From positions 1 to 37,596 of IMG/VR virus record IMGVR_UViG_3300037493_005672: a DNA stretch of 37,596 bases; one strand, written 5' to 3'. A program made the position numbers and the translations under genes. Source of the stretch: a virus. The first letter of the stretch is position 1, and every line of letters starts with the position of its first letter. Positions 3,250 through 37,596 of this stretch are shown one piece after another. The notes beneath the pieces are model-generated. The model was given only the letters and a program-made list of their open reading frames with translations. It made no database searches and was not told the DNA's origin.

Positions 3250-3256
3250 ATAAATA
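3250..3256 (-). promoter_or_regulatory. TATTTAT upstream element of the gp41-like helicase gene
   Basis: Sense-strand TATTTAT (followed by T) ends 26 bp before the helicase ATG. The same 7-mer recurs ahead of many starts in this window. This is the only replication gene carrying it; the others with it are mainly virion genes. Its role as a promoter is inferred from recurrence alone. Confidence 0.4.
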
Positions 3257-3259
3257 CAC

Positions 3260-3709
3260 TCAAGCGAGGGTATAATTCATATAGTTAGTAATAAAATTTT
3301 GAGCTGAAAATATGTCAGTTAAGTGTCGAAGTACGTTTTTTGCTTGCTGACGTATGTCTACGGTGTATCTTATCTTAGGTGGGAAAAGTTTTGCATCCAA
3401 GATCCTATGACAAATTGTCTGCTCCCCAATTCTCACATAAAAATTGAAATATTCTGTGTTGTTGGTATTGTCAGTGTCTAAAATTGTGGGATCTTCAGAA
3501 ATGTAAAATTGATTATCCATCATGTAGATAACTGTTTTCATTTTTTGGGTTTGCTCGAAAGCATCAACCAAATCCCTCATATAATCGTACAACTCAATAG
3601 AAGCACGAGCTTTGGGATTATAACCCCTTACATTAAAATACCTTTGGATTACAATGTTGTTATTCAAAGTGATGAGAAATTCCATCTTGACGATATCTTG
3701 TTCTTTCAT
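3260..3709 (-). CDS. Hypothetical protein between exonuclease and helicase genes
   Basis: I do not recognise this 149-aa protein. It reads as a mixed alpha/beta soluble protein with no signal peptide, membrane segment or cysteine cluster (one Cys, in GEQTICHR). The N-terminal half contains a strand-rich start (MEFLITLNNNIVIQRYFNVR) and a helix (ASIELYDYMRDLVDAFEQTQ). The C-terminus is helical and hydrophobic with many Tyr and Asn. It lies 5 bp after the exonuclease stop side and 36 bp upstream of the helicase gene in one operon, so a replication-accessory role (for example in the slot occupied by helicase loader or recombination mediator genes in other phages) is possible, but nothing in the sequence demonstrates it. 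It is shorter than T4 gp59 (217 aa). Confidence 0.75.
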   Translation of the reverse strand: MKEQDIVKMEFLITLNNNIVIQRYFNVRGYNPKARASIELYDYMRDLVDAFEQTQKMKTVIYMMDNQFYISEDPTILDTDNTNNTEYFNFYVRIGEQTICHRILDAKLFPPKIRYTVDIRQQAKNVLRHLTDIFSAQNFITNYMNYTLA

Positions 3710-3714
3710 AAAAA

Positions 3715-4719
3715 TTAGTTTGATTGTTTAAATTTTCTTTTTTCTTTTCTTGTTAGTTTCATAAATGGTTGGACAAAGTCTAAAAAGGCTTCGTCCGTTT
3801 TGGGAAGAAACTTAAAGAACCCATCATTAGTCATCATTCTGATAAGGTTCTTCGACCCCCTTCCCTCAGGGTCCATCGATTCTCGATAATAAAGTTCTAC
3901 TAGCTCCCTACTTTCTTCGGTAATCATCGGGTTGGATAGATCAACAATTTTGGTGTTGATCTCAAAAAATAGTTTTCCGAGTTCACCATTCTTTGATTTT
4001 CCCTTTGACAAATTATGTAGTGCTTTGTTGGTTTCATTACCTTGTATAAGTTGGTTGGTCTTCAACAAAATATCATCAACAGAAACGATGCTATCAAGTA
4101 CCTCGGGGAAAAACTTCAGAAAAGTTTTCTCTCCTAATCTTTCGATCCCATCGATGTTATCACTCTTGTCACCCATAATCACCTTGACAGTCAGAATGTT
4201 TTGGTGGGGGATTTTATTACCCATAATAGGTACTTTATCTCCCATCTTATACATCTCTTTGACCATGGGGGAGTAGATGGATGTTGTCGAGTCGATAAGC
4301 TGTAAGAGGTCTTTGTCTGCTGTGAAAACAACTTTGTCTTCATCGGTTGCCACCTGACAGTAATAAGCGATAAGATCATCGGATTCATTGCCATCGACAC
4401 GCAGTTGGCGTACGAAGCATTCCTCCAAATATTCTTTGACCCTTTGTTTCTGTATAAGATATGACTCGAATTTGAATTCGTTCATATCTTGTCTGCGATT
4501 TAGTTTGTAATTGGGATATATTTCACGTCGTTGACTTGAGTTGCCGTCACCGTCCCAAAAGACGATAATTTTGTCATAGTTGTATTCATCCAATTGTTTC
4601 CTGAGGGTATTGAGAAAGTGGAAGACCCCGCCGATGTGATGACCATCGACAAAGAATTCTCGCACTCCATGGAACCCGATCTTAAATAAGTTATCTCCAT
4701 CTACTAATAAAGTTTTCAA
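3715..4719 (-). CDS. rnh: 5'-3' exonuclease / RNase H, FEN-1 family (T4 Rnh-like)
   Basis: This structure-specific 5' nuclease removes RNA primers and flaps from lagging-strand fragments; at 334 aa it is near T4 RNase H (305 aa). Acidic active-site motifs of the FEN/PIN fold are visible: LVDGDNL (~5-11), FWDGDG (~54-59), VDGNESDDLIAYY (~108-120), TADKDLLQL and the helix-3-turn-helix block MGDKSDNIDGI. The basic tail KLTRKEKRKFKQSN fits DNA binding. The start is a TTG at 4719 (the codons read Met-Lys-Thr-Leu-Leu-Val-Asp); no in-frame ATG lies closer to the first motif. It sits 35 bp downstream of uvsX and 5 bp upstream of the next gene, so it is part of the replication operon. Confidence 0.9.
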   Translation of the reverse strand: MKTLLVDGDNLFKIGFHGVREFFVDGHHIGGVFHFLNTLRKQLDEYNYDKIIVFWDGDGNSSQRREIYPNYKLNRRQDMNEFKFESYLIQKQRVKEYLEECFVRQLRVDGNESDDLIAYYCQVATDEDKVVFTADKDLLQLIDSTTSIYSPMVKEMYKMGDKVPIMGNKIPHQNILTVKVIMGDKSDNIDGIERLGEKTFLKFFPEVLDSIVSVDDILLKTNQLIQGNETNKALHNLSKGKSKNGELGKLFFEINTKIVDLSNPMITEESRELVELYYRESMDPEGRGSKNLIRMMTNDGFFKFLPKTDEAFLDFVQPFMKLTRKEKRKFKQSN

Positions 4720-4754
4720 TCTTTATAATCTAATTGATTTGACAAATAGGGACA

Positions 4755-5768
4755 CTATCGAAGGATGTCAGGGTCTTTCTCATCGACAAGGGAAAAGTCC
4801 CCGTCTGATCCGATGATCTCCTTCCAGTAGTCAGAATGTTCTTTCTTGTACGCCTCGATCGATGCCTTTTCTTCTACGGTTTCCTTACCCGCCAAAAAAC
4901 CGTGGGGAGTGACAATAATCTTTCCATCTTCGTAACCCAATCCGTTGATGTGGTTTTTCATAACCGATATTTTAGAACGTGTTGCGAACTTCACGGTTCT
5001 TTTATCTTTCGTTGCAGTAATCTTCGTTGTGCCAGCACCTTTCTGATTTCCAAACAAAAATACCAATGAAGAATTCAACCAAACTGATTCACCACCTTTA
5101 GCTTTGATTTTCGGTTGACCAAAAGGATTGTCAGGTAATTCTACCCAAGGTTGATTCACAATCACGAGGGTGTTTTCAAACTTTGAGTCTGCTTTACGAG
5201 ACCCTGAAATTCTTTGATTGATACCCATACCGATTTTATCGGCTAAAGTTGCTGCGTTGTGCTGCTTACCACCTTTTCCCTCGTAAGTCATTTTCGAAGG
5301 AACTGAACCGATAGAATCCCATAGGAACAACAGATCGTATTCTAACTCTCCTTTTTCTTGAGCATCTAACAAATCATTGATGTATTGTGTTATCTGTTCG
5401 ATATAGTTAAAATTATTATTAAAGATAAAAAATCCGTCCCAATCGATTTCACCAGTTTCGGGATCTACCGCTTCTTGACATTCGAATCCCATCAACTGAG
5501 CGTGATCAAAACTCCATTTTTGTTCTGTAATAATAAATACAGGAAGAACGTTTTGCTTCTGAGCGCTCACCGCGGATTTGATAAGAGCGGTTGTCTTACC
5601 TGTATCACTATGTCCTAAGAACATATTGATGTGCCCAATTGCGGGACCCGGTAGTCCGACTGCTTCCAAGAATTCTTTTCCTAAATCAAAAAAACGTTGT
5701 GGTTTATATTTTGCCGAAGTTGAGAACTTCTTCTTTAGCGTTGTGAAATCAGTTTTTTTAAGTGCCAT
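4755..5768 (-). CDS. uvsX: RecA-like recombinase UvsX
   Basis: This ATP-dependent strand-exchange protein drives recombination-dependent replication and repair in T4-like phages. Its 337 aa is slightly short against T4 UvsX (391 aa). The core contains Walker A GHSDTGKTT (~52-60), a Walker B-like LLFLWDSIGSVPSK and RecA-type L1/L2-region segments (GKGGKQHNAATLADKIGMGI; KAKGGESVWLNSS). The C-terminus is acidic (SDGDFSLVDEKDPDILR), as in many RecA proteins. The gene follows gp32 with a terminator-like hairpin in between (5812-5857), so it is probably transcribed at a lower level than gp32. No sigma70-like promoter is evident directly ahead of it. The start is ATG with the A-rich leader AAGATAAAAAACATG and no Shine-Dalgarno. 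Confidence 0.93.
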   Translation of the reverse strand: MALKKTDFTTLKKKFSTSAKYKPQRFFDLGKEFLEAVGLPGPAIGHINMFLGHSDTGKTTALIKSAVSAQKQNVLPVFIITEQKWSFDHAQLMGFECQEAVDPETGEIDWDGFFIFNNNFNYIEQITQYINDLLDAQEKGELEYDLLFLWDSIGSVPSKMTYEGKGGKQHNAATLADKIGMGINQRISGSRKADSKFENTLVIVNQPWVELPDNPFGQPKIKAKGGESVWLNSSLVFLFGNQKGAGTTKITATKDKRTVKFATRSKISVMKNHINGLGYEDGKIIVTPHGFLAGKETVEEKASIEAYKKEHSDYWKEIIGSDGDFSLVDEKDPDILR

Positions 5769-5811
5769 GTTTTTTATCTTAGGATGTAATTATTTTATTA
5801 TTTTTTTGGTT

Positions 5812-5857
5812 AAAAAAAAGGACACTCTCACAGACAAAGAAGTCGGTAAGAATGTCC
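5812..5857 (-). terminator. Intrinsic terminator or attenuator between gp32 and uvsX
   Basis: On the minus strand GGACATTCT pairs with AGAGTGTCC (nine pairs, one G-U) across a loop of about 20 nt, and eight T follow at once. It lies 14 bp after the gp32 stop and 44 bp before the uvsX ATG, so it would limit read-through from the abundant gp32 message. Confidence 0.7.
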
Positions 5858-5871
5858 CGTTAGTTATTAGA

Positions 5872-6714
5872 TCAGAATGGTAGATCTTCATCAGGATCTG
5901 CTCCTGTTTGTGGATCCATAACATTAGATGACTTACCTCCACCCATAGATAAAAGTGCATCGTCTCCGTATACATACTTACCTGTTTCAGAGTTCCAACG
6001 TGGTTCTTCACCACGAGCAATTGCTTCCAAAAACTCTACGGGTTTTTTCGAATACACATCTTGCCAAGTCATCTCATCTGCCAACCACTCTTTCATAGTT
6101 GGTTCAATCGTGTGGAGAATTGATGGATCATCGTGCATGATGGTTTGAATTGCGGTGTAATCTTTTCCGCCAGGTGTTTTTTGTTTCACCAATTGGATGA
6201 TAAGATCACGACCTTTTTCAGGATCGGTAATATCACCTTTTTGTCTCCAAATTGGAATGATCTTATCGAGAATACCCTCGTTTTTGTAGTTGTGTTTGAA
6301 TCTCCAAAATTTAACACCCTCTTCTTCAGCGTCACGATCAACAACCTTTACAATGTAAAATTTACGTGACTTGTATTGACGGGCAAGTTCTTTATCAGAT
6401 TCTTTTCCCGTTGACATAAGTTCTTCGTGAACTTCATTCAAAGGTGATCTTTCGTTATCGTTCTTTCCTGGATCATAGAACTTCTGCCATTTACCTCCTA
6501 CTTGGAGTTCGTGGTAAAAAACTTCTACGAAGGGTGATGAACCATCTTTAGTTGGGAGAATTCGGACTCTTCTTTGACCTTGAGCCTGACCTTGCGGTAG
6601 AATACAAGCGAAGTATTTCTTCATTCTTTCTTCCTGAGACATTCGGTTAGAATTGTCGAAGGATTGGGTGTTTTTCTCGTACTGAGCGAGAACTGCGTCA
6701 AGTGGACTGGACAT
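5872..6714 (-). CDS. 32: Single-stranded DNA-binding protein, gp32-like
   Basis: This 280-aa protein (T4 gp32 is 301 aa) coats ssDNA at the fork and coordinates polymerase, helicase and UvsX. It has a basic N-terminal arm region, then an OB-fold-type core with aromatic and basic strands (QRRVRILPT, VFYHELQVGGKWQKFYDP, SRKFYIVKVVDRD, VKFWRFKHN). A Gly/Ser-rich linker leads to an acidic tail ending GADPDEDLPF, the typical protein-interaction tail of phage SSBs. Only one Cys (in KYFACILP) is present, so the His-Cys3 zinc site of T4 gp32 is absent. A sigma70-like promoter lies directly upstream, and terminator-like hairpins flank the gene, making it a probable monocistronic, highly expressed unit. 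Confidence 0.9.
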   Translation of the reverse strand: MSSPLDAVLAQYEKNTQSFDNSNRMSQEERMKKYFACILPQGQAQGQRRVRILPTKDGSSPFVEVFYHELQVGGKWQKFYDPGKNDNERSPLNEVHEELMSTGKESDKELARQYKSRKFYIVKVVDRDAEEEGVKFWRFKHNYKNEGILDKIIPIWRQKGDITDPEKGRDLIIQLVKQKTPGGKDYTAIQTIMHDDPSILHTIEPTMKEWLADEMTWQDVYSKKPVEFLEAIARGEEPRWNSETGKYVYGDDALLSMGGGKSSNVMDPQTGADPDEDLPF

Positions 6715-6747
6715 ATTTGTAAAAAAATTTAATTATTAGATATAGGA

Positions 6748-6776
6748 ATTATATGCGAAATTTATTGTTAAGTCAA
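6748..6776 (-). promoter_or_regulatory. Sigma70-like promoter of gp32
   Basis: On the minus strand TTGACT and TATAAT are separated by exactly 17 bp. The -10 ends about 33 bp before the gp32 ATG. It sits just after a terminator, in an otherwise gene-free interval, which strengthens the call. Confidence 0.75.
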
Positions 6777-6790
6777 ATTGTTCACCAAAT

Positions 6791-6815
6791 AAAAAAGGAT
6801 CACAACGTGACCCTT
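6791..6815 (-). terminator. Intrinsic terminator ending the tail-block transcript
   Basis: On the minus strand AAGGGTCAC pairs with GTGATCCTT around a 3-nt GTT loop, followed by a T-run. One pair is G-U only when transcribed from the minus strand (the other strand would have an A-C mismatch), which fixes the direction. It lies 26 bp past the stop of the gene at 6842. Confidence 0.8.
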
Positions 6816-6841
6816 ATAATATAATAAAATATTTTCATTTA

Positions 6842-7483
6842 TCAACGCATACCGAACCTATTATCTGTAGGTTCAGGAACTCGTGAATTAAAGGACTTCT
6901 TAATATCACTCGGAACAATTTGTTCTACTTCATCAGATGTGAGGACATATTCGTTCTTTCCTGACTTTTCCATGTCTTGTTGTTTGTCATCAAAAAAATC
7001 GGTCAACTTTTGATGGAATGGACCTGAGTCTAAACTACGAAGTTCTAATTTTTCTTGCGGTGACTTAGGTCTGTATTTCTCAATCTTTTCTTCAATGTCA
7101 TTTAGTTTTGTAACTAAATTTTCCATTTCCGATAATTTACCTTGAAGTCCTTCGAGTTGTTTGAACATCATATCGAAATATTCGGTCTGCTTAGATTCCA
7201 TACCTTTTTGTGAGTTGACCAAATCGGTAATGTCTAACTCTTCAGATCCTCCTTGTGTTTCTGTTTCCTGATTGTTATCACCAATTTTTTCGACCTCAGT
7301 ATCTTGGGACACATCGATTACCTCAGGTTTAGGAGTCTCAGCGGGTTCTAACATCGGATCCTCAGTTGGAATCTCGGTGTCCATCGTTTGATCTTGAGCA
7401 TCAACAGCTTCCTGCTCTGTAATATATTTATTGATTGAGTTGTGTCTTTTCAACTCCTCTAAAATTGTTTTGTCAATTTTCAT
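6842..7483 (-). CDS. Hypothetical acidic coiled-coil protein, possible virion or core protein
   Basis: This 213-aa protein is unrecognised. A short basic/hydrophobic N-terminus (MKIDKTILEELKRHNSINK) ends in YITEQ. Next comes a long acidic, low-complexity stretch rich in Glu, Thr, Pro and Asp (~25-90), then a heptad-rich coiled coil (~95-145, FKQLEGLQGKLSEMENLVTK and following), then a more structured C-terminus with GKNEYVLTSDEVE. The ITE-Q junction matches the (L/I)-x-E consensus cut by T4-type prohead protease gp21, and together with the acidic body this is reminiscent of capsid-targeted internal or scaffold proteins; that reading is inference. It is the last gene of the tail block, 3 bp after the 74-aa gene, and is followed by an intrinsic terminator. 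Confidence 0.75.
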   Translation of the reverse strand: MKIDKTILEELKRHNSINKYITEQEAVDAQDQTMDTEIPTEDPMLEPAETPKPEVIDVSQDTEVEKIGDNNQETETQGGSEELDITDLVNSQKGMESKQTEYFDMMFKQLEGLQGKLSEMENLVTKLNDIEEKIEKYRPKSPQEKLELRSLDSGPFHQKLTDFFDDKQQDMEKSGKNEYVLTSDEVEQIVPSDIKKSFNSRVPEPTDNRFGMR

Positions 7484-7486
7484 GTC

Positions 7487-7711
7487 TTATCCGTTTAATA
7501 ATTGTTTAACACCTTGTTGAGTCTCTACTCGTACTTTTCTATTTGTTCTGATAGTATTATCAACTCTTTCAATCAATCCATCACGATCCCTTACAGTATA
7601 ACAATCCCCTGTGTCTAAATCACAGACCTCGGTGTAACCGTTGTTAGAAGTTTTTTCACTATATCTTGAGTTTTTACCAAGATACATATCCAAGTTATCT
7701 TTAATATTCAT
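7487..7711 (-). CDS. Small hypothetical protein (74 aa)
   Basis: This is a short, hydrophilic, charged protein that I do not recognise. It contains VCDLDTGDCYTVRDRDG, a Cys pair separated by six residues within a probable beta-hairpin, followed by a basic segment (RTNRKVRVETQQGVKQL). It has no signal peptide or membrane segment. The ATG has a TATTTAT element 12 bp upstream, and the gene is followed after 3 bp by the 213-aa coiled-coil gene, so the two probably form a transcription unit distal to the giant baseplate gene, whose stop lies 22 bp before this start. Coding status rests on spacing, the upstream element and the intact frame. Confidence 0.65.
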   Translation of the reverse strand: MNIKDNLDMYLGKNSRYSEKTSNNGYTEVCDLDTGDCYTVRDRDGLIERVDNTIRTNRKVRVETQQGVKQLLNG

Positions 7712-7723
7712 AATATTTTCTCT

Positions 7724-7730
7724 ATAAATA
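7724..7730 (-). promoter_or_regulatory. TATTTAT upstream element of the 74-aa gene
   Basis: Sense-strand GATATTTATAG; the 7-mer ends 12 bp before the ATG at 7711, in the 22-bp gap after the giant baseplate gene. Confidence 0.45.
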
Positions 7731-7733
7731 TCA

Positions 7734-10700
7734 TCAAAAAGTAATAAGTCCTAAAGAAATACATTTCTCAACACTTTCCGATGCTTGTTTTCTTATTGTT
7801 TGAACAGATTGTGCGTTTGCTAAGATCCAATTATTTCTTTGTTGTGTTGTTTGAAAACTTTTAGTTGGCCACCATTCAATCCATAACAAGACTAAACTTT
7901 CAATAAATAAATCCTTAGTATTCCATTTGTATTCAGGGTCGGAATTGTATAATTTTTTTCCATTTATCGGATTCGAATAGTAAGTTGAGATAAAATCTAC
8001 TGACTTATCAAAATCCGAAAACACCGCATACGGAACTGATACGCCATTCGATGTTGTTCTACAACCAAATGATTCGTTGAAGAACTTTCTTCGTTCACCA
8101 TAAGTAATTCCTGAGTAAACGGTTCCTCCGAATGGGGTACCACCCAAATCAAAGTCATAAGTGATGAACTTGTTATCATCATGACCATTTGCATATGCTG
8201 TGAAGAATATCAAACCTTTCAATATTTGATTATAACCTTTATCCTTAAGCAACTTTGACAAATCACCAAATGTAATTTCACGTTTTGATGATTCTACACC
8301 AACATAGTTTCTGTATTTTTGATTTGCGACTTGCATGTCCGAAATACATCTAACAGGATCTGCTGGAGTAAAGGTTTGATTTGTTTGTATGGAGTTTCCA
8401 ACTGAAATAACATTTTTTGTAACAACTTGTGATTCAGTATCTTTTAGTCTCTGTACACCCAACACCAATTCACTCAACAAACTCTGATTTAAACTGAGAA
8501 TTTGTTTAGTAATTTTTGGTATCGATACAACTGGCATTCTGAGTCCTGTAAAAAAAGTTTTGAAGTCTCCACCATCGATGACGTGTTCCACCGATTGTAT
8601 CATATAAGGCCCATAAAACATCGGAACATGTTGAAGATTAAAATACATAGTAGGTTGTATCATAACATTACCCAATGATTCTACTCTACATTCGTAACTT
8701 CTTGTTTTATAGTAATTGTATAGACCAAGACTTTGTCCGACAGCTCGTTTACCACCAGCTTGTAGAGCTATACCCGTAATCACCCTATTTGATTCAGTCG
8801 TGGCTGCAGCAGAATTTTGATCCAATTGTATAGAATAAAATATACCTTGATTTCTATTACCAAAGTCGACATTAAATCCAACAACTTTATTGGATAAGGC
8901 GAAATTTACTTCTTCACCTGTTGATCTCGATAACGAATTCCTTCCCCCACATTCGAAGGTAAAGGCATCGGTCTTAAATCGGTAATCTTGATTTTCCTTT
9001 AAGTTAAGATGTTCGGAAGGTTTTCCTACAAAGTAACAAACTAACTTGGGTGATGATTCGCGGTAATCAACCTCAAGATAAGTTCCAAATAATGAATTTG
9101 CTAAATCCTGAGATGTTTCTGTCCTTGGTCTCTGCCCATCAACAGACTCACCTATACCCCAAAAATTAACGTATGCCGGCATTGGCATCATTTGGAATTT
9201 GTTGTCGGCAAATATCTTACTCACAAAATCAATAATACGAGCGTTGGTTTGAGCAGTGCTTGATAAAAAATTCTTAAGTTTCAATACATCTAAAAGAACC
9301 TCATTTCCTATATCTCTATTTGCACGATCTAAAAATAGAACATCTTGAAAAAGGGTTCTATTTTGGAATTCACCACCTGATATCCATTTGTCGTTGAAGG
9401 CTTTGAATGTTTCCCATAGTTCTAATTTCTGTTCATCTCCGTCTAAACCGGAAAGAATTGGTTTTTCATTAGATTGTTCTACGTTTGGTAATTGTTTTTG
9501 TAGACTAAAAAATAACTGTGTTAAAATTTGACTTACTAAGGTATCTTTATCGGTATAATATGTGTTGATGTTCTCAATAAATTGTGTTGACCCATAGTTT
9601 CCATCCGCCAACAATTTTTGTGTACCATAAATCTTAATAAGGGGTGCAAATGTTTGAACATTTGCAACGGTAAACTGAACATTCATATCAATAAAGAAGT
9701 CTGTAAAATAACTCCCTGTATTAGAATAAATCATGTCAGGTGTCGTTGCAAAACCTACATAGGTATACATCGAATTCCACTCTTGTGGAAACGCGGCTAT
9801 TGATTGTGCAAGAGTAATAGTTCCACTACTCGATGGTAAAGTATTTTGTACATATGGATTATACGTAAAGGGATCAAAGACCCTATTGGATGGTAAGGTA
9901 GTAAATGAACCCCATAATTTTCTATCAAAATTACTTGGATTACCGTAACGAAATACCACATCATAATTCAAGAAAGTCTCGATTGTGTCAGTAATTTTAA
10001 TAGCCTGCTTTTCCGATACTTTTTTGACATAATCCTCTGACGAGATTTGGTTGTCGGGAGTATCAATAGTCAAAAGTTCTTGCATCAAAAATTGAAAGTT
10101 CTTATTGACAGAACTTGGTCCTGATACGACATCTTTTTCTACGTCTTTTGTACTCACCGAAAACTTTAAGAATTCTTGTTCAAACTCATCCAATATTTCC
10201 GTTTTAAATACCCCAAATATCTCCTCAATAAACGAATACTCTGACCCTAAACTAAAAGCCTCTGAATTTTTTGTGTTGGGTTTTATTAACTTGAAATACT
10301 GATCATATTGTGGTTTTTCGATACTTGGTAGTTCGAAGTATCCGAAATTCGGTGCTTGCCAAAAAGTTCGGAAACTACCGTTGAATACTGCGGTGTTGTT
10401 CAATACCTCTTGAGTAATGAATTCTCCAGTTGGACTATCCTCAAAACATTCTGATAATACCTGATTTGTATTGGAACCAAAACAAGGCATTACAATTGTT
10501 TGATTCTGCAGGGATGGGATAAACTTAGTTGAATCCTTTGTGTCAAAAGATGTAAACCAAGTTCTTAAGGTTAGAAGTCTACTTGGGTCGTTTGCATCAA
10601 AACCTAATGGTAATTCAATATTACTATTACTAATATTTCCTACGTTTAAACCCTCTGAGATGGCCGCATTCATTTCCGTATCACTATAGGTGGTAAACAA

Positions 10701-27048: not shown

Positions 27049-27082
27049 TTTATTATATGTTCAAAAAACTTTATTTTATTAC

Positions 27083-27089
27083 ATAAATA
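27083..27089 (-). promoter_or_regulatory. TATTTAT upstream element of the sheath gene
   Basis: Sense-strand GATATTTATG ends 34 bp before the sheath ATG at 27048, in the gap that separates it from the small plus-strand gene. Confidence 0.45.
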
Positions 27090-27125
27090 TCTGCAGATAA
27101 AACAAAAACTTTACTTTGCTTAATC

Positions 27126-27132
27126 TATTTAT
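27126..27132 (+). promoter_or_regulatory. TATTTAT element on the plus strand ahead of the 51-aa gene
   Basis: The plus-strand 7-mer lies within the perfect inverted repeat CTATTT-ATA-AAATAG (27125-27139). It ends 36 bp before the ATG at 27169, and a terminator-like hairpin lies in between. Confidence 0.35.
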
Positions 27133-27138
27133 AAAATA

Positions 27139-27162
27139 GGCAGATTTTATTCTGCCTTTTTT
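27139..27162 (+). terminator. Terminator-like hairpin in the leader of the 51-aa gene
   Basis: GGCAGA and TCTGCC pair around TTTTAT, followed by six T on the plus strand. It lies 6 bp before the small gene's ATG and downstream of the plus-strand TATTTAT element, so it may attenuate that gene. On the minus strand the same stem is followed only by TATTTTAT and could weakly end the completion-gene transcript. Confidence 0.6.
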
Positions 27163-27168
27163 CTACCT

Positions 27169-27324
27169 ATGGACAAAAAAATAAAGAATTTGAAGATATC
27201 GATCGAGTCACACCAAGTCTTAAAAAACTATTGTGACAAGAAGGGTGTAAAAATGTACCGGTTCTTAGAAACACTTATATTAGAAAATTGTAAGGACAAA
27301 AAAGATATATACGGAGAATCATAA
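27169..27324 (+). CDS. Small ribbon-helix-helix-like protein (51 aa), possible repressor
   Basis: The ORF runs ATG to TAA and starts MDKKIKNLKISIESHQVLKN. The layout is a short basic strand (IKNLKISIE), a helix (SHQVLKNYCDKKG), a turn and a second helix (MYRFLETLILENC), which fits the MetJ/Arc/CopG ribbon-helix-helix fold in which a strand pair reads DNA. It is the only plus-strand gene within the minus-strand tail block. It overlaps the 3' end of the gene at 27319 by 6 bp, tail to tail, and its leader carries an inverted repeat and a terminator-like hairpin. A DNA-binding regulatory role is inferred from the fold pattern alone; the protein is too short for certainty. Confidence 0.6.
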   Translation: MDKKIKNLKISIESHQVLKNYCDKKGVKMYRFLETLILENCKDKKDIYGES

Positions 27325-28877: not shown

Positions 28878-28882
28878 ATTAC

Positions 28883-28911
28883 TTGATAAATATTACAAAG
28901 TTCATTATCTT
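28883..28911 (+). promoter_or_regulatory. Weak sigma70-like promoter for the SNF2 helicase gene
   Basis: TTGATA and TATCTT are separated by 17 bp on the plus strand, ending 8 bp before the TTG start at 28920. If real, the 5' leader would be only a few bases. The -10 is a poor match. Confidence 0.3.
28886..28892 (-). promoter_or_regulatory. TATTTAT upstream element of the 171-aa gene
   Basis: Sense-strand AATATTTATC ends 8 bp before the ATG at 28877, in the 42-bp divergent gap shared with the helicase gene. Confidence 0.4.
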
Positions 28912-28919
28912 TTTACGTA

Positions 28920-30686: not shown

Positions 30687-30696
30687 TGTGTCAAGG

Positions 30697-30703
30697 TATT
30701 TAT
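30697..30703 (+). promoter_or_regulatory. TATTTAT upstream element of the SOD-fusion gene
   Basis: Sense-strand GTATTTATTA ends 27 bp before the ATG at 30731, in the short gap after the helicase gene. Confidence 0.45.
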
Positions 30704-30730
30704 TATCTATAAACCCATATAATAAAAAAT

Positions 30731-32260
30731 ATGAGAAACCTAAAAAAACAGATTCACGAGATTGAAGAAAATCTCAGAAACAAACAAATTGTAAAAGAAG
30801 AATCCCTTCAAGAAGCCAAGAGAATCAGAGCCGAGAAATTACCATACGCGTATTCATCACTTCGTCAGTTCATTGACCCTGAAACGATGGAGATCCACTA
30901 CAACAAACACTACAAAGGTTATATTACAAAACTCAACGATGCGTTGGAAGGAAAAAACTTGGGTGACATCTCACTTGAGGAAATAATAAGGGGTATCGAA
31001 AGATACTCCAAAGTTGTACGTGACAACGCAGGGGGCGCATACAACCACGGTATCTTTTGGAAGATGTTATCCCCCACCGAAACAAAGGTAGGTGAGGAAA
31101 CAATGAAGAAGATCAACTCGAGCTTTGGTTCGTTTATAAACTTCAAAAAGAAATTTGAAGAAGAATCCAAAAAAAGATTCGGATCAGGGTGGTCGTGGCT
31201 TGTTCTTACCAAAAGGGGAACAATGAAGATTATGACAACTGCAAACCAAGATAACCCCCTGATGGATATTATCAAAGAAGGTGGGTATCCCCTTCTCGGG
31301 TTGGACTTATGGGAACATGCTTATTATCTGAAATACAGAAACAAAAGGGATGAATACATCAAAAACTTTTGGAAGGTGGTGAATTGGGACTTTGTAGAAT
31401 CGGAACTACAGAGGATCGAAGGGAAAAACGTCAAAGAAAGTTTGACGGCAAAAAAATTCCTTACAGAACAGAAAATGTCAAACCCTTGTACCAAGGACGA
31501 TAAAAGAAAGATCAGGGAAATGTTCAATAACAATCCACAGATACTGCAGATTTATAGACAAGGAGTAGAAAAAATTTTAGAAAAGGTATATCCCGACAAG
31601 TGGTATAAAAATAACGAATATCAAAAGGGGATGTCCTCAGGGGTCTATGACTTGGAAAAACCAGGTAGATCAATTATTAATTATTTGAATACCAACTACA
31701 GCGCATTTTGTCCGTTACTAAAAGACCTAAATAAGGTTTTAATTGCCAATGGAAAAAACCCGATCGAATTTGAAGGATTGTCGAAAGAAGATCAAATCAA
31801 TGAGATGTACGATATGTTGCAGGTTATCTTTCAACTAAAAGACAGAATATTTGACGAAAAATCCAAAACATTTCAAAATATATTTCAGATTTTGAATACC
31901 ACATCTACAATGGGTTCGAAGACGGAAGATTTCGTGGAGAACAAATTTCAGGAAAAGTTTGGTCCTGAGAACGTAAAAAGAATCGGAGCTTTGGGAAGCA
32001 AAGAAGATATGATGGGTGTGGATCTCAAAGTTTTTACAAACGGAAAACTACACACCGCACAGGTAAAACCATATGACTCTGTCGAAGAAATTGATGATAT
32101 GATACGAGTATCAGGTACCGCTAACGTAAAGTCATATAACACCGATTGGATGGTATTTGTCCGTAGAGGAAAAGATTTTATAGTCTTTGATAACACCAAT
32201 TCTCAGATTATCGACGGAACTTATAATTTTCCTGTAGACTCTTTGTTGTACCAATTCTAA
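30731..32260 (+). CDS. Mn-type superoxide dismutase fused to a PD-(D/E)XK nuclease-like domain
   Basis: This 509-aa protein has three parts. Residues 1-35 are a charged helix. Residues ~36-232 form a complete Fe/Mn superoxide dismutase: LPYAYSSLRQFIDP, EIHYNKHYKGY (His ligand and gateway Tyr), YNHGIFW (His), GSGWSWLV, TANQDNPL and GLDLWEHAYYLKY (Asp, His), so all four metal ligands are kept. Gly in AGGAYNH together with Gln in ANQD fits the Mn-type rather than the Fe-type. After the linker LTAKKFLTEQKM, residues ~249-509 hold a second region. There, GSKTEDFVENKFQEKFG, GVDLKVFTNG and LHTAQVKPYD give the E...D...QxK pattern of PD-(D/E)XK nucleases. The SOD part is secure; the nuclease-like part is a motif reading. 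A function linking the two is unknown. Confidence 0.85.
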   Translation: MRNLKKQIHEIEENLRNKQIVKEESLQEAKRIRAEKLPYAYSSLRQFIDPETMEIHYNKHYKGYITKLNDALEGKNLGDISLEEIIRGIERYSKVVRDNAGGAYNHGIFWKMLSPTETKVGEETMKKINSSFGSFINFKKKFEEESKKRFGSGWSWLVLTKRGTMKIMTTANQDNPLMDIIKEGGYPLLGLDLWEHAYYLKYRNKRDEYIKNFWKVVNWDFVESELQRIEGKNVKESLTAKKFLTEQKMSNPCTKDDKRKIREMFNNNPQILQIYRQGVEKILEKVYPDKWYKNNEYQKGMSSGVYDLEKPGRSIINYLNTNYSAFCPLLKDLNKVLIANGKNPIEFEGLSKEDQINEMYDMLQVIFQLKDRIFDEKSKTFQNIFQILNTTSTMGSKTEDFVENKFQEKFGPENVKRIGALGSKEDMMGVDLKVFTNGKLHTAQVKPYDSVEEIDDMIRVSGTANVKSYNTDWMVFVRRGKDFIVFDNTNSQIIDGTYNFPVDSLLYQF

Positions 32261-32268
32261 TAATTGGA

Positions 32269-32275
32269 TATTTAT
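32269..32275 (+). promoter_or_regulatory. TATTTAT upstream element of the neck-like gene
   Basis: Sense-strand GATATTTATTAG ends 15 bp before the ATG at 32291, in the 30-bp gap after the SOD fusion gene. Confidence 0.5.
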
Positions 32276-32290
32276 TAGAAAAATAGTCTA

Positions 32291-33409
32291 ATGGCAGTTA
32301 TTCCCGAACCAGAAAGAAGTAAATTTTACAACAGGATTCTCAATTTGTTGGGGGCTCCCCTAAGAGCCGTGGAGTTAGAATACGAAATGATGGATTCCCT
32401 TTTGGAACTGTCAATCCAAGACTACTCAGAATACGTTCAAGATTGGTTGATTGAATCCCAATGGACAAGTCTTTATGGTCTAAATTTGGACACACAATCT
32501 GTTGCCAACGCCTTGGTAAGGAGAAGTTTAGATTGGGAAACACAATACACCTACGCATACTCCAAGATCGCTGGTCTTCAAAATGCGGGTCCATGGGTGC
32601 TAAAACGAGATTATATCTCATTGGTTCCAAACCAACAAATCTACGAGATTCCTGCATGTAGGGAAATCAACCAACTTTTGTTTTACTCACCAAGTGAGAT
32701 GACCAATCTTTTATTTGACCCTTTTTCCTTCGGAGCTATCGGAGGGGGTGGAGGTCTTGGTGGACCTGGTGGATTTGCTCAGACCGGATACGGGGGTGGT
32801 GGATATTTTTTCTTCTCCTCCTACGATGTGATGTCAAGACTACAAGATGTCAACGTCAAACGAAGGTTGATACAACCTGACCTACAATATCAAGTTACAG
32901 CCCTTCCTGATGGAAAACACGCTATTTGGTTATTCAACACCCCTGGTGGTAGATTTGACTTCGGAGATTCAGAATTGATGAGAGGTCAAGTATGGTATTG
33001 GTATTATGAAGTATGTGAAGACGAAAGAGATTTATGTCTGAAAGACAACCCCGATATTGTACGTCTTCCATCAGACATTCCTTTGGATACCATCGAGTGG
33101 GTTGATTTGAATGAACCAGCAAGAACATGGGTTAGAAGATGGTTTACATCTTATTGTAAAGAAACATTAGCACGTGTCCGTGGTAAATTTAGTGGTAACC
33201 TAAAAACACCCGATAGCGAGGTACAAATGGATTATCAATCTTTACAAACGGAAGCTAAAGATGAAAAAGTAACTTTATTGACCGAGTTACAACTAAGATT
33301 AGAAAGACTAAGACCTGAGAATCAAATGAAAAAAGAATCTGAGATCGCCACAAATTTGAACACACAACTAAAGTATCGACCGATGACAATTCCAATAACT
33401 GTAGTCTAA
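32291..33409 (+). CDS. Probable neck/connector structural protein (gp13/gp14-like)
   Basis: This 372-aa protein opens with ERSKFYNRILNLLGAPLRAV and ELSIQDYSEYVQDWLIESQW, followed by a beta-rich body with YISLVPNQQIYEIP. Near the C-terminus, KETLARVRGKFSGNLKTPDS, then EVQMDYQSLQTEAKDEKVTL and LQLRLERL, form a helical tail typical of a family of T4-type virion (neck) proteins that sit between portal and tail. T4 gp13 and gp14 are 309 and 256 aa, so this version is longer. Part of the excess is a glycine-rich loop (~150-178, GAIGGGGGLGGPGGFAQTG then GGGG) followed by an aromatic patch. The stop precedes the next ATG by one base (TAACATG), so the two are coupled. Confidence 0.6.
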   Translation: MAVIPEPERSKFYNRILNLLGAPLRAVELEYEMMDSLLELSIQDYSEYVQDWLIESQWTSLYGLNLDTQSVANALVRRSLDWETQYTYAYSKIAGLQNAGPWVLKRDYISLVPNQQIYEIPACREINQLLFYSPSEMTNLLFDPFSFGAIGGGGGLGGPGGFAQTGYGGGGYFFFSSYDVMSRLQDVNVKRRLIQPDLQYQVTALPDGKHAIWLFNTPGGRFDFGDSELMRGQVWYWYYEVCEDERDLCLKDNPDIVRLPSDIPLDTIEWVDLNEPARTWVRRWFTSYCKETLARVRGKFSGNLKTPDSEVQMDYQSLQTEAKDEKVTLLTELQLRLERLRPENQMKKESEIATNLNTQLKYRPMTIPITVV

Positions 33410-33410
33410 C

Positions 33411-33746
33411 ATGGCGATAATAAAAACACACCCCGTAGAGAAAATTATAAACGGAAACAGAGTTCGAACATCAGAATCGGCAATAGTCTCAGAAAAAAGA
33501 TATACCACAAACGGAGAATACTCCATTATTGTTCGTGATGTCGAACATTGTGATTTGTTCTTAAACTCAAAGACCACCGATAAAATTAAGATAAAGGCAA
33601 TGACCAATATCTTAATAAAACCAGACAATGGTAAGATTGACGAAGAGTGGGATGATATAGAATTGGATCGTGGTTCTTGTATCGAACTAGTCAATATCAA
33701 TCAAGGATGGTATATTCTTTCCTCTGATGGTGTCAAATTGTGGTAA
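33411..33746 (+). CDS. Small hypothetical beta-rich protein (111 aa)
   Basis: I do not recognise a named family. The sequence alternates short strands: ESAIVSEKRYTTNGEYSIIV, CDLFLNSKTTDKIKIKAMTN and SCIELVNINQGWYILSSDGV. The last block, a Gly-Trp-Tyr strand followed by SSDG, is common at the end of small phage virion or decoration proteins and suggests a compact beta sandwich. The ATG is separated by one base from the stop of the neck-like gene, so the two are translationally coupled and a structural role is likely. Its last 60 bp overlap, tail to tail, the 3' end of the DNA polymerase gene on the other strand, so both transcripts end within each other's coding region. Confidence 0.7.
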   Translation: MAIIKTHPVEKIINGNRVRTSESAIVSEKRYTTNGEYSIIVRDVEHCDLFLNSKTTDKIKIKAMTNILIKPDNGKIDEEWDDIELDRGSCIELVNINQGWYILSSDGVKLW

Positions 33747-36533
33747 TTCCACAACAGAATTTTCCCAACCTTCTTCAGCAATATCGTAGATATAGGTAGG
33801 GTTCAAACCTCGTTTACTCCAATATATCATTTCTTGATCAGATATCTTCAAAACGTCATCCAATTCATCTTGGTCACCATTACTAAGTGGATGTCCGTTG
33901 ATCAACTCACACTGTTTAGTGGTAAAAATACCCCTGTCTTTGGGATCCATAACCAACATATCTTTTCTTATTTCTCCTTGGAATACAACCAATAAAGGCT
34001 CGATTCTTTTGTTAAAGGTATTCATCGCTCGGGCAACATTGTAATCACCCTTTAGATTTGGATCATTAGCGAGTTGTTCTTGGTCAATGAGGTAACAATT
34101 CAACTGAACATAAGATTCGGTATCCTGAAGTACTGCACCCGTTTTATCCAAATATTTTTTTCTTTGTAAATCACTATATCTTTTAGCCGGTACCTTCTGT
34201 ACATCACCATGTGAGGATTTTTCACCGTTATTTACATACATTATGACATCACCAAGATTCAAATTCAGATTGTTTCTAAGGGCAAGCTCCATATGTGCTT
34301 GACGTGACATCAGTGAACCCGCTTTAGTCTTTTGAGTACAACGGGTATTGTAGTCATCCAAACTTTGTTTCACCTTCGCCCTCTGAGCAATCTTGATAAG
34401 GGGAATATCCTTCGTAAAGATTCTATCAATATATTCATAGTAATATTCAATAAATTCTTTACCCTTACCATTCAACAACATTTTTATTCCCTTGTCCAAG
34501 AAGTCTTCGATATATCCAGGTAATCTTTTGGACTTGATGGTATTACCAACCAATTTTATTTTACCTGAATCTGTCATCAGAGCATAGTTCTTACGAGCTA
34601 GATTGATACACGAAGGCCAAACACCATCGTTATCGAGAGCCATTTCTCCCCTCATAAAGATATCGTTGTATTCTGCAATATCTGCCGAAGCTCCCGTGTA
34701 TTCTTGACCTTCTTTTACCTTCCAGTTCAGTCCACGACCAATATATTTTCTTTTTGAAATATCAGGAGGTGCCGAGAAGTTTACACCATCAGTATCCATT
34801 ACCAAGGGTTCATAACCTCTTTTGATAAAATAAGAAATCATTTGACGAAGATACTGACGACCAGTACAGGTAATTTGTTCACCCATATACATGTCACCCC
34901 AATGAAAGACCTGAGGAGCGGATAACGCACCAAACATCGAGTTGATAAAGATCTTAATCGGTAATTGTTTTCTGTCGTAAGACTGCGATTTCTTAGGGTC
35001 ACTTTCAGAGAATTCCTCAGCAAGTTGTTTATAGGAAATACGAGAATCACGGAAGTATTTCAGAAGTCCCTTCATCGCACCTGTGACATCACACTTTGGG
35101 AATACATCGTGTACAAGTTGAATGGAAGGATATAGTGATGAAAAGTCGAGTTTCAAAACATTGGTAGAATACCCGACCTTAATAAGACGAGATAGTCCAC
35201 CAACAAAGTCCGTCTTAGATTGTTTTGAAGGGATTGCCAAATTGTACTTATACGACCATGCCAACATAATCATCTTCCATAGAGTTGCGGTACCCATCGT
35301 GCTAACACGTTCGTAGGTGGTGGGAACCAAAGACGCAAGAAGGAATGAACCTTGATTGAATTCATCATCTACCCGTAAGGTTTCATCCAAGTCATCATCG
35401 AGATATTGTTCCACAATCTTATCACCTGTGACCTTCTTATATACATCAGGGAACTTCATATCCAAATCAAGAAACTTAGGGTCACTACATTTTTTGTACT
35501 TACCATTTTTGATGTTGAGCCAATACTCTTCTTTCTTTTGGTACATAGACCCAATTTCGGTGTGGTCGATATATACACGATCCTCGTCTTCGATCTGCAG
35601 ATATTGTGTAATATACTTCAATCCAGCACTCTTGATGTTAGAATTGATAGCCTGAGCCCTTCTGACAGAGTGAAGAATGTCAATAACGTTGTAACCCCAA
35701 ATAGAGACCTGTGGGTACCTTTCTACCTCATTAGCCAATTTCAACATCTGTTCCTTTTGTGTGATAGTCCTTTGAGGATTCAAAGACTTACAAACCTTTT
35801 TTACATCCAACCCAAGAGCCTTACTCCTTTCAAAGATCCAATTCCAGTCAAAGTTGAATGAGTTATAACCACCAATAATAGAAGGCTTCAACTCGTTTAT
35901 AATATCGAAAAATTTGATAATCCCAAGACGTTCTTTTTCCTCCGTGTCACACTCAATGACCTCGTGGAATCCCTTGTTGGTTTTCATACCAATCATAAAA
36001 ATACGACCATCTTTAGGTTCCAAAGAAGTTGTTTCCAAGTCAAATACAATACGAGTGATGTCGTTGTATTCCTCATAACCCTTAAACAATCTCTTTTCCT
36101 TCTGAATAAGATATTGTTCAACGGGTGGTAACATCAAAAATAAATCACGAACCTTTTCACCCCAAGGGTCAATCCCACCATCTCGGAAGAACTGAATCAA
36201 AGATCGATAACCCGATAAAGACTTCACCATAAAGGATAACCCGGTCTCCAAACGTTCATCACCATGAGTATCGAGTTTGTCAATTACAATCTTGTATTTT
36301 GACATAGCCTCCTTTTGAAGCGCCTTGGATCCCTGATAAAAGTTTTGGTTTCTTAGGTCTCCAACCCAAGCGAAAGGGATAAAATTGTCTTTTATAATTG
36401 CCTTACCCTTTCCTGGTATTTCCTTGATCTTGTAAATAGAATCCGAAACATAATCAAACTCTATTGATACAATGAATTGTTCGGGGTCGTTACCCTCCAA
36501 AAATGTTCTTATTTCCTCCGTTGATATCATCAA
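33687..36533 (-). CDS. 43: DNA polymerase, family B, T4 gp43-like
   Basis: This is the replicative polymerase with proofreading, 948 aa against 898 in T4. The 3'-5' exonuclease motifs are FDLETTSLEP (~164-173), GYNSFNFDW (~222-230) and YNVIDILHS (~281-289). Polymerase motifs are KLDFSSLYPSI (A, ~460-470), KIFINSMFGALSAP (B, ~527-540) and VMDTDGVNF (C, ~578-586), with all catalytic Asp present. The polypeptide is uninterrupted: no intein or intron, unlike many T4-like polymerases. A sigma70-like promoter lies ~70 bp upstream, overlapping the end of the preceding gene, and the leader has no Shine-Dalgarno. The last 60 bp overlap the convergent 111-aa gene. It is encoded apart from the other replication genes of the window. 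Confidence 0.97.
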   Translation of the reverse strand: MMISTEEIRTFLEGNDPEQFIVSIEFDYVSDSIYKIKEIPGKGKAIIKDNFIPFAWVGDLRNQNFYQGSKALQKEAMSKYKIVIDKLDTHGDERLETGLSFMVKSLSGYRSLIQFFRDGGIDPWGEKVRDLFLMLPPVEQYLIQKEKRLFKGYEEYNDITRIVFDLETTSLEPKDGRIFMIGMKTNKGFHEVIECDTEEKERLGIIKFFDIINELKPSIIGGYNSFNFDWNWIFERSKALGLDVKKVCKSLNPQRTITQKEQMLKLANEVERYPQVSIWGYNVIDILHSVRRAQAINSNIKSAGLKYITQYLQIEDEDRVYIDHTEIGSMYQKKEEYWLNIKNGKYKKCSDPKFLDLDMKFPDVYKKVTGDKIVEQYLDDDLDETLRVDDEFNQGSFLLASLVPTTYERVSTMGTATLWKMIMLAWSYKYNLAIPSKQSKTDFVGGLSRLIKVGYSTNVLKLDFSSLYPSIQLVHDVFPKCDVTGAMKGLLKYFRDSRISYKQLAEEFSESDPKKSQSYDRKQLPIKIFINSMFGALSAPQVFHWGDMYMGEQITCTGRQYLRQMISYFIKRGYEPLVMDTDGVNFSAPPDISKRKYIGRGLNWKVKEGQEYTGASADIAEYNDIFMRGEMALDNDGVWPSCINLARKNYALMTDSGKIKLVGNTIKSKRLPGYIEDFLDKGIKMLLNGKGKEFIEYYYEYIDRIFTKDIPLIKIAQRAKVKQSLDDYNTRCTQKTKAGSLMSRQAHMELALRNNLNLNLGDVIMYVNNGEKSSHGDVQKVPAKRYSDLQRKKYLDKTGAVLQDTESYVQLNCYLIDQEQLANDPNLKGDYNVARAMNTFNKRIEPLLVVFQGEIRKDMLVMDPKDRGIFTTKQCELINGHPLSNGDQDELDDVLKISDQEMIYWSKRGLNPTYIYDIAEEGWENSVVELPQFDTIRGKNIPSLIDID

Positions 36534-36598
36534 TTATATTATTACCGAGTGACATATTATCTTCCATGTATAATGGAGTTCGTCTTCTCATTCAGTTT

Positions 36599-36629
36599 CA
36601 AATATAGATAAAAATCAATCGGTCGTCAA
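36599..36629 (-). promoter_or_regulatory. Sigma70-like / Bacteroidota-type promoter of the DNA polymerase gene
   Basis: On the minus strand TTGACG and TATATT are separated by 17 bp. The -10 reads TATATTTG, which also matches the Bacteroidota -7 consensus TAnnTTTG. It lies ~65 bp before the ATG, and the -35 overlaps the stop of the upstream gene. Confidence 0.65.
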
Positions 36630-37027
36630 CAACAGGGGGTGTCAGCAATAAAACTATCTTGGATATTGATATACAGTTCATCTCGGATCGGAACAATCAA
36701 ATCACCCTGAGGGCCACCCAATAACGCTGAGTTATACTTTATAAGGAATTGACCCAAATACCTACCCGGTGTGTTTGTATCCCTTTTAGTAAATCTGTAA
36801 AATACATAATACTCAGGATCGGCATTTACATCTAATCCTGTTAACTCAACAATATAAGCGGGTCTTGATACTATCTTTGGAATACCTGTTTCAGAATTTA
36901 TCATTGTAAAGGAAATGACAGCATCGGCCAAAGAATCCATAAAAGTTTGAAAATCACTTCTACCATCACGTACCACTTGCATTTTTAACAAGGGTAGGGT
37001 TGCATTTTTCATTATATAAAAATCCAT
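36626..37027 (-). CDS. Small conserved structural-type protein (133 aa)
   Basis: The sequence starts MDFYIMKNATLPLLKMQVVR (an internal Met6 is an alternative start). It continues with SLADAVISFTMINSETGIPK, EYYVFYRFTKRDTNTPGRYL, GQFLIKYN and GDLIVPIRDELYINIQDSFI. That layout, a beta sandwich with a 'fTM.d..TG' strand and a 'GrY.G.F.I' strand, resembles the N-terminal domain of baseplate upper (BppU-type) proteins that attach fibres or receptor-binding parts. The protein ends in DTPCC; paired C-terminal cysteines may matter for cross-linking or metal binding. A TATTTAT element is 14 bp upstream. It lies between polymerase and a glycosyltransferase-like gene. The structural role is inferred from fold resemblance and the upstream element. 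Confidence 0.65.
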   Translation of the reverse strand: MDFYIMKNATLPLLKMQVVRDGRSDFQTFMDSLADAVISFTMINSETGIPKIVSRPAYIVELTGLDVNADPEYYVFYRFTKRDTNTPGRYLGQFLIKYNSALLGGPQGDLIVPIRDELYINIQDSFIADTPCC

Positions 37028-37041
37028 AGATAGTTTTTATA

Positions 37042-37048
37042 ATAAATA
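37042..37048 (-). promoter_or_regulatory. TATTTAT upstream element of the 133-aa gene
   Basis: Sense-strand GGTATTTATTA ends 14 bp before the ATG at 37027, in the 25-bp gap after the glycosyltransferase-like gene. Confidence 0.5.
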
Positions 37049-37052
37049 CCAA

Positions 37053-37596
37053 CTAAGATTCTTTTCTCAGTTTTCCATCATAAAATTCGAATCTATTGTG
37101 CTCCGTGGGTGTCATCAATAACATAGCAGGTTTAATATTACCTTTTACTGTTTCTTGATAAATGTAACTCATCCATGTTTGTTCAAAGGGATGAGCCCAC
37201 TTATCAGTCAAAAACATTTTTCTGTTTCCATCTTTTGAAACAATTTGGGGCCAATTACAATAATATATCTCACCATCAATAAACGGTATTCCTCGATAAG
37301 ATCTAATATTATTAAACTTTGTTCTTGGAGCATTCGGATCTTGACCCTGAACAGGTAGATTGGGTTTTTCAGGCCATCGTTCTTTTCTGAAAGATTGTGG
37401 GACATTATACCAAGACCATTGGATTCCATTGTCACCAAAGAATTCTGTATAATTAAGTTTTAAAAAATCATAACCATAGTTTTTTACAATATCTAAAGTA
37501 TGACGATACATATTTTTTTCATATCTGTTAAAACCATTTTTACATACTTCACCCTTTTTAGGAAAGAAAAACATATCGTCCTCGAAGAATAAATAA
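37053..37596 (-). CDS. Probable glycosyltransferase-like protein, C-terminal part (runs off right edge)
   Basis: The frame is open from the window edge. An ATG at 37574 would give 173 aa, but the codons before it read LFFEDDMFFFPKKG, an acidic EDD motif like the metal-binding DxD of glycosyltransferases, so the gene probably starts outside the window. Following blocks are CKNGFNRYEKNMYRHTLDIV, DFLKLNYTEFFGDNGIQWSW, GIPFIDGEIYYCNWPQIVS, KWAHPFEQTWMSYIYQE and LLMTPTEHNRFEFYDGKLRK, suggesting a soluble sugar-transferring enzyme of the kind used to modify host surface or virion glycans. No membrane segment is visible. A TATTTAT occurs 14 bp before the inner ATG (37589-37595), so a shorter product from 37574 cannot be excluded. 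Confidence 0.6.
   Translation of the reverse strand, partial: YLFFEDDMFFFPKKGEVCKNGFNRYEKNMYRHTLDIVKNYGYDFLKLNYTEFFGDNGIQWSWYNVPQSFRKERWPEKPNLPVQGQDPNAPRTKFNNIRSYRGIPFIDGEIYYCNWPQIVSKDGNRKMFLTDKWAHPFEQTWMSYIYQETVKGNIKPAMLLMTPTEHNRFEFYDGKLRKES

Follow-up and report, generated by a model that had tools for sequence, protein, structure and literature searches.

The heptamer TATTTAT recurs just upstream of start codons in IMG/VR virus record IMGVR_UViG_3300037493_005672, a 37,596-base fragment of a phage genome that was analysed over its whole length and is hereafter called the window. We consider it very likely that TATTTAT serves as the -10-like core in late promoters across a large clade of T4-superfamily phages, and that it is read by a phage-encoded sigma factor resembling T4 gp55. 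The element, its direction, the class of genes that it precedes, its spacing, the lack of a -35 element and the presence of a sigma homologue were all observed directly. In the mechanism that we propose, the phage sigma factor, a distant gp55 homologue with an extra C-terminal helical domain, would bind the host core RNA polymerase and direct it to TATTTAT without the help of a -35 element. Transcription would then begin at an A located 4-6 nucleotides (nt) after the core. An mRNA whose start codon falls exactly at this A would be leaderless, and the others would carry a leader, usually of ~8-13 nt, with no Shine-Dalgarno (SD) sequence. Early genes would use TTGAC-N17/18-TATAAT-type promoters recognized by a host sigma factor, and the DNA polymerase gene would use a composite of both types.

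The window carries a T4-superfamily myovirus module comprising a DnaB-like helicase, UvsX, gp32, a family B DNA polymerase (Pfam) and a UvsW-like helicase, together with a virion part that includes the tail sheath, tail tube, baseplate hub and head-tail adaptor. As judged by the tail tube protein, the nearest annotated isolates are Microcystis phage Mel-JY01 (44% identity), Rhodothermus phage RM378 (36%) and Flavobacterium phage immuto (34%), and IMG/VR holds hundreds of close relatives. There are five matches in bacterial assemblies, and the host is likely to be a member of the Bacteroidota because two of these five matches sit in Bacteroidales bins. More generally, the TATTTAT phages form a large and mostly uncultured clade of T4-superfamily phages that probably infect Bacteroidota. 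The comparative set consisted of the window and 80 relatives (81 sequences, 611 gene starts); most relative loci were fetched via virion genes, and orthologous sites are not independent of each other.

Distribution of TATTTAT and the genes that it precedes

The raw excess of TATTTAT in the window is modest, with 24 copies on both strands versus 15.2 +/- 4.0 in dinucleotide shuffles. However, sense copies lie no more than 60 nt before the start in 11 of the 25 main window genes versus 0.83 expected, and none of 2000 shuffles reached 11. The signal is therefore carried by position rather than by raw count. Among the 611 starts, TATTTAT is found upstream of 48%, compared with 0.6% of coding 50-mers, which is the top enrichment among all heptamers. 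It is likewise the top heptamer upstream of immuto genes, and TATAAAT ranks far below it both in the relatives and in immuto. The motif search with shuffled controls proposed in a preliminary description of the window thus bears out the excess that this description had noticed. All 12 of its sites were located where it had put them, with gaps of 8-38 nt to the ATG as it had stated, except that a recount yields six rather than seven gaps of 12-17 nt.

Controls for TATTTAT comprised its complement, letter permutations and one-mismatch variants, since the heptamer is its own mirror image and a backward reading is unusable as a control. All seven positions of the core matter, because the core is enriched 23.5-fold and each one-mismatch variant at most 3.6-fold. 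Letter permutations are far less frequent than the core, and the eighth base, immediately after it, is free (A 138, T 76, C 27, G 15). When 47 starts from the T4 late region were used as a control, TATTTAT preceded six of them, which is high by ratio and is perhaps due to head-to-head T4 late promoters, but TATAAAT (12/47) and ATAAATA (13/47) were commoner. No earlier description of TATTTAT, or of RM378 or immuto promoters, was found in the open-licence literature.

The element is also directional. In gaps between co-directional genes of five large relatives, sense copies occur at 5.0-7.7 per kb and antisense copies at 0.5-2.3 per kb; the corresponding values for immuto are 3.5 and 1.2, so that antisense copies are 3-15 times rarer than sense copies in such gaps. 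In the same five relatives, divergent gaps carry nearly equal numbers on each strand (42 versus 38 sites), and convergent gaps contain one copy per strand in ~2.5 kb. Coding sequence holds 0.14-0.28 sense copies per kb. Because the element is on the sense strand in co-directional gaps, on both strands in divergent gaps and nearly missing from convergent gaps, it behaves like a promoter and not like a by-product of A/T-rich spacers.

TATTTAT precedes the genes at the heads of virion operons in 91-100% of orthologues. In contrast, within 60 nt upstream it is found for none of 52 gp32 genes, one of 62 UvsX genes and none of 13 RNR genes among the relatives. Genes internal to operons also lack it, as seen for the gene of a 2176-aa (amino acid) protein (0/29) and likewise for the 106-aa and 111-aa genes. 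The DNA polymerase gene was at one point taken as a contrast gene that never carries the element, as suggested by a 60-nt search (0/54), yet an exact copy lies within 200 nt in 42 of 58 relatives, mostly 40-80 nt before the ATG, and this use was dropped. The TATTTAT class thus comprises virion genes plus some replication genes, and the latter may be active at early as well as late times.

A second type of promoter is represented by gp32, which serves as the contrast class. In the window, gp32 has an early-type TTGACT-N17-TATAAT promoter (6748..6776, minus strand) without TATTTAT, and TTGAC is present upstream of gp32 in 54 of 55 relatives, 47 of these with a -10 element at a distance of 17-18 nt. 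This agrees with the preliminary assignment of a sigma70-type promoter to gp32. A similar statement that the polymerase gene lacks TATTTAT holds for an exact copy in the window genome and fails for the relatives. The polymerase promoter of the window, TTGAC-N18-TATATTTGA (36598..36629, minus strand), reads TTGAC-N18-TATATT, with TATTTGA in that same position, and has no exact TATTTAT. In relatives the arrangement is a composite, TTGAC-N18-TATATTTAT, and 23 of the 42 polymerase TATTTAT sites have TTGAC upstream. At virion-gene sites TTGAC occurs 0-2 times per family of 31-69 sites, and in a set of 246 TATTTAT sites it occurs at 10. A logo of 176 TATTTAT sites reveals no -35 element, the region being flat except for a W-only tract. 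Phage AR9 continuously expresses those genes that have an early as well as a late promoter (PMC5312081), and by analogy the composite polymerase promoter may serve continuous expression.

Between the polymerase promoter and the start codon, the leader (36551-36584, minus strand) holds a two-helix RNA element with a GAC/GUC outer stem and a 5-bp hairpin. In an alignment of 18 sequences all 144 pair cells are intact, and seven of the eight pairs exhibit double-sided compensatory changes. The element has no Rfam match in the window. T4 gp43 has an autogenous translational operator, and the polymerase-leader element is a candidate for a similar operator, differing in that it lies ~25-60 nt upstream of the start.

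Spacing, putative start sites and probable leaderless mRNAs

The logo of 176 sites shows a peak of A residues 11-13 nt from the first T, which is 4-6 nt after the core. Distances from TATTTAT to the ATG range overall from 4 to ~80 nt and are bimodal, with 72 of 278 genes at 4-6 nt, only six at 7-9 nt, and a second, broad mode at 13-18 nt. The first mode coincides with the position of the A-peak. There are 87 ATGs located 4-6 nt after an intergenic TATTTAT, and 78 of these begin an open frame of at least 50 codons. Some families, namely those of the 372-aa, 133-aa and 615-aa proteins and of the superoxide dismutase (SOD) protein, switch between the two gap modes. The simplest reading of these patterns is that transcription starts at the A 4-6 nt after the core, such that AUG is either at +1 or follows a leader of sufficient length for ordinary initiation. 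Given that 72 of 278 ATGs sit at the A-peak and that a trough follows at 7-9 nt, many late mRNAs are probably leaderless, with about a quarter of cases beginning at the start codon.

SD-like motifs occur at the shuffled level in six phage genomes, in contrast with a T4 control in which 33 of 47 starts have such motifs versus nine after shuffling. These counts support, for the phage genes, an earlier suggestion of a host without SD use. The companion proposal that TATTTAT is itself a leader signal is contradicted by its variable distance to the ATG and by its location upstream of structured leaders. In the five large relatives, the sites additionally have a tract 14-17 nt before the first T in which G and C hardly occur (4% at -16, P ~1e-14) and neither A nor T is preferred. 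This tract was not seen among the 27 sites of immuto.

A gp55-like candidate sigma factor and known promoter systems

The preliminary description had recommended looking for a gp55-like sigma factor elsewhere in the genome, and a homologue is present in relatives and in immuto. Weak matches to a single protein, in immuto and in five large relatives, were obtained when the T4 gp55 family served as the query. A profile of this protein found members in 14 of 15 searched IMG/VR contigs of at least 86 kb, including G007 (86.6 kb), the exception being G006 (95.6 kb), and had no match in eight contigs of 56-77 kb, all of which are fragments. It also matches immuto KNV73_gp118 and proteins of Mel-JY01 and LR756508, and its only match in T4 is, reciprocally, gp55 (E 5e-4). 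All 24 members tested match phrog_234, the gp55 PHROG; the best PDB sequence match is T4 gp55 (E 0.08, colinear), and a profile-profile comparison with gp55 (hhalign) gives P 1.3e-4. With the predicted structure (pLDDT 75, pTM 0.43), Foldseek retrieves almost only sigma factors. The homologues are ~235-250 aa long, and their C-terminal third forms a four-helix domain (pLDDT 86). Together, these findings identify the phage protein as a distant homologue of T4 gp55 (sigma region 2).

The C-terminal domain was considered as a possible sigma region 4, as full-length Foldseek alignments covered it, and this assignment was rejected when the domain modelled alone had no sigma match in the PDB. The family phrog_12791 matched nothing except T4. 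The sigma gene does not carry TATTTAT (0/40). The gene that follows it does so in 38 of 40 cases, always 4-6 nt before the ATG. This gene encodes a ~124-aa protein beginning MGRPQKKEIN (L151:3776-4150 and relatives) that matches nothing in PHROG or Pfam at E<=0.01 and is a possible late-transcription co-factor.

RM378 resembles the TATTTAT phages in having its own element with the same geometry and a sigma homologue, and differs in that the last core base is A. The variant, TATTTAA, is directional and precedes 39 of 141 genes, a 64-fold enrichment (L406, L428-L431), and annotated starts are most often 6 nt after it. The RM378 sigma homologue (Rm378p020, E 6e-7) is detectable only through the immuto/Mel-JY01 profile. 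A further homologue (E 9e-61) is encoded at 100324-100986 of LR756508.1, a 484-kb uncultured phage.

The T4 late promoter lacks a -35 element and consists of an 8-bp TATA box placed roughly one helical turn before the start; it requires gp55 together with gp33 and the gp45 clamp, and variant cores are known (PMC2988020). Like the T4 system, the TATTTAT system would serve phage late genes through a single -10-like A/T box with A/T-rich DNA downstream and no -35 element; in both, the phage encodes a sigma region 2 homologue, and the spacing from box to putative start agrees within ~1 nt (T4 value from PMC2988020). The differences are a core of TATTTAT instead of TATAAATA; a longer sigma factor with a C-terminal helical domain, compared with a gp55 of ~185 aa that has no further domain and ends in a clamp-binding peptide; and, in the phages studied here, no SD sequences, many probably leaderless mRNAs and the W-only tract ~15 nt upstream. 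No T4-type or beta clamp (PF02916/PF00712) scored above the cut-off in 11 relatives, immuto, Mel-JY01 and RM378, where a very divergent clamp is possible, and T4 itself was positive for PF02916. The TATTTAT system thus works like the T4 late system but is not the T4 late promoter itself. A preliminary view of the element as a reverse form of the T4 promoter is not supported: the element acts in one orientation only, and the eighth base, which a reversed TATAAATA (TATTTATA) would need to be fixed, is free. No such reversal is needed, because TATTTAT can be derived from TATAAAT on the same strand by replacing AA with TT. Directionality, gene class and the start-site signature all lend strong support to the broader idea of a late promoter, and relatives do encode a gp55-like sigma.

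Precedent for an altered late consensus in a T4-like phage comes from Aeromonas phage Aeh1, with a/gC at -13/-12 (PMC2988020), although other positions are altered there and its host belongs to the Gammaproteobacteria. Phages phiKZ and AR9 also have a short late consensus near the start site and stacked early and late promoters, and AR9 leaders are long, at 26-491 nt (PMC5312081). Their promoter sequences differ from TATTTAT and are read by a phage multisubunit RNA polymerase.

The promoter of the Bacteroidota housekeeping sigma factor has TTTG at -33 and TAnnTTTG at -7. TATTTAT late sites have no conserved upstream TTTG in the 176-site logo, and their core is TATTTAT, not TAnnTTTG. The gp32 promoters are closer to this housekeeping type than the late sites are.

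Sites in the window, alternative explanations and implications

On the minus strand, TATTTAT is found at 3250..3256 before the DnaB/gp41-like helicase gene (start 3223; kept in 31/49 relatives), 7724..7730 before a 74-aa open reading frame (ORF; start 7711; 48/48), 19565..19571 before the gene of a 1657-aa tail protein (start 19547; 34/34) and 21458..21464 before that of the 615-aa protein (start 21440; 22/24). Further copies on this strand precede the tail tube (22960..22966, start 22921; 60/64 relatives within 60 nt and 68/68 within 200 nt), the tail sheath (27083..27089, start 27048; 38/40) and a 171-aa protein that is neck-like by genome position only (28886..28892, start 28877; 60/66, with a gap of mostly 4-5 nt). 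The remaining two lie before a 133-aa ORF (37042..37048, start 37027; 45/45) and, at the window end, before a 173-aa ORF (37589..37595, start 37574) for which only 4 of 38 relatives have the element. On the plus strand, 32269..32275 precedes a head-tail adaptor-like 372-aa protein (start 32291; 60/62; phrog_211) and 30697..30703 precedes a 509-aa protein (30731-32260, plus strand; 51/54). The latter has an N-terminal Fe/Mn superoxide dismutase domain (Pfam Sod, E 1e-39) and a long C-terminal part with no assigned family, and is perhaps a virion protein. The third plus-strand copy (27126..27132) precedes a divergent 51-aa ORF (27169-27324) that is conserved in relatives and whose product is possibly a ribbon-helix-helix protein. 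Between this copy and the ATG at 27169 is a terminator-like hairpin, GGCAGA-TTTTAT-TCTGCC-TTTTTT (27137-27171, plus strand; z -4.9), with similar ones in relatives, which is a possible attenuator.

Several alternatives to a late promoter read by a gp55-like sigma factor were weighed. An effect of composition in A/T-rich spacers has a negligible chance of being right: the spacers are indeed A/T-rich and the whole-window count is only 24 versus 15, but permutations and one-mismatch variants are far rarer, antisense copies are 3-15 times rarer and convergent gaps are nearly empty, and these controls refute it. It is also highly improbable that TATTTAT acts in RNA, as a leader signal that governs translation or transcript stability in a non-SD host. 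The lack of SD motifs and the location of most copies within 60 nt of the ATG would fit such a role, whereas the 4 to ~80 nt range of distances, the polymerase copies upstream of a structured leader, and the trough in the bimodal gap, as a start site predicts, do not; moreover, the internal 2176-aa, 106-aa and 111-aa genes lack the element even though they are necessarily translated. The merging of TTGAC-N18 with TATATTTAT at polymerase promoters indicates that a host-type -10 could accommodate the core, as would be expected if a host sigma factor read TATTTAT with no phage sigma involved. We regard this as improbable, because late sites lack TTGAC (0-2 per family) and any -35 element, gp32, UvsX and RNR essentially lack the element, and a phage sigma homologue is conserved.

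There is a small but appreciable chance that the late promoter is real and that another phage protein, such as an activator or polymerase subunit, reads it while the gp55-like protein does something else. The sigma factor and the motif are linked by co-occurrence only, and LR756508 has the homologue and no motif in the 50 kb tested; against this, no conserved -35 element or upstream operator is present save the W-only tract, and in RM378 the variant TATTTAA accompanies a divergent homologue. Reading by the gp55-like sigma factor, which we favour, has its own difficulties. We infer the start site, the recognition of the element by the sigma factor and the late timing from sequence, and the sigma gene lies outside the window fragment. 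Each single gp55 match is weak, and the low-confidence full-length model superposes poorly on whole sigma factors (TM 0.2-0.3). The helicase and polymerase are replication genes, and many relatives carry TATTTAT before them (31/49 and 42/58). In addition, enrichment in Mel-JY01 is weak (10% versus 2.2%), none of 43 genes around the LR756508 tail tube gene has TATTTAT upstream, and gene starts in uncultured genomes are mostly longest-ATG calls.

A broader proposal, which we judge to be evenly balanced between right and wrong, is that this abundant uncultured T4-superfamily lineage has a clamp-free late system in which a two-domain gp55-like sigma factor reads TATTTAT (TATTTAA in the RM378 branch), with about a quarter of promoters yielding leaderless mRNAs with AUG at +1, fitted to non-SD hosts. 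For very common, almost uncultured phages, having a promoter code together with a candidate sigma factor would make late operons predictable from sequence alone. The system also shows how the gp55 promoter code can vary, between TATAAATA, TATTTAA and TATTTAT, apparently with no coupling to the sliding clamp, the defining trait of late transcription in T4. Finally, given the sharp gap rule (4-6 nt or at least ~10 nt), Flavobacterium phage immuto, a cultured relative, offers a direct test of whether phage mRNAs are leaderless.

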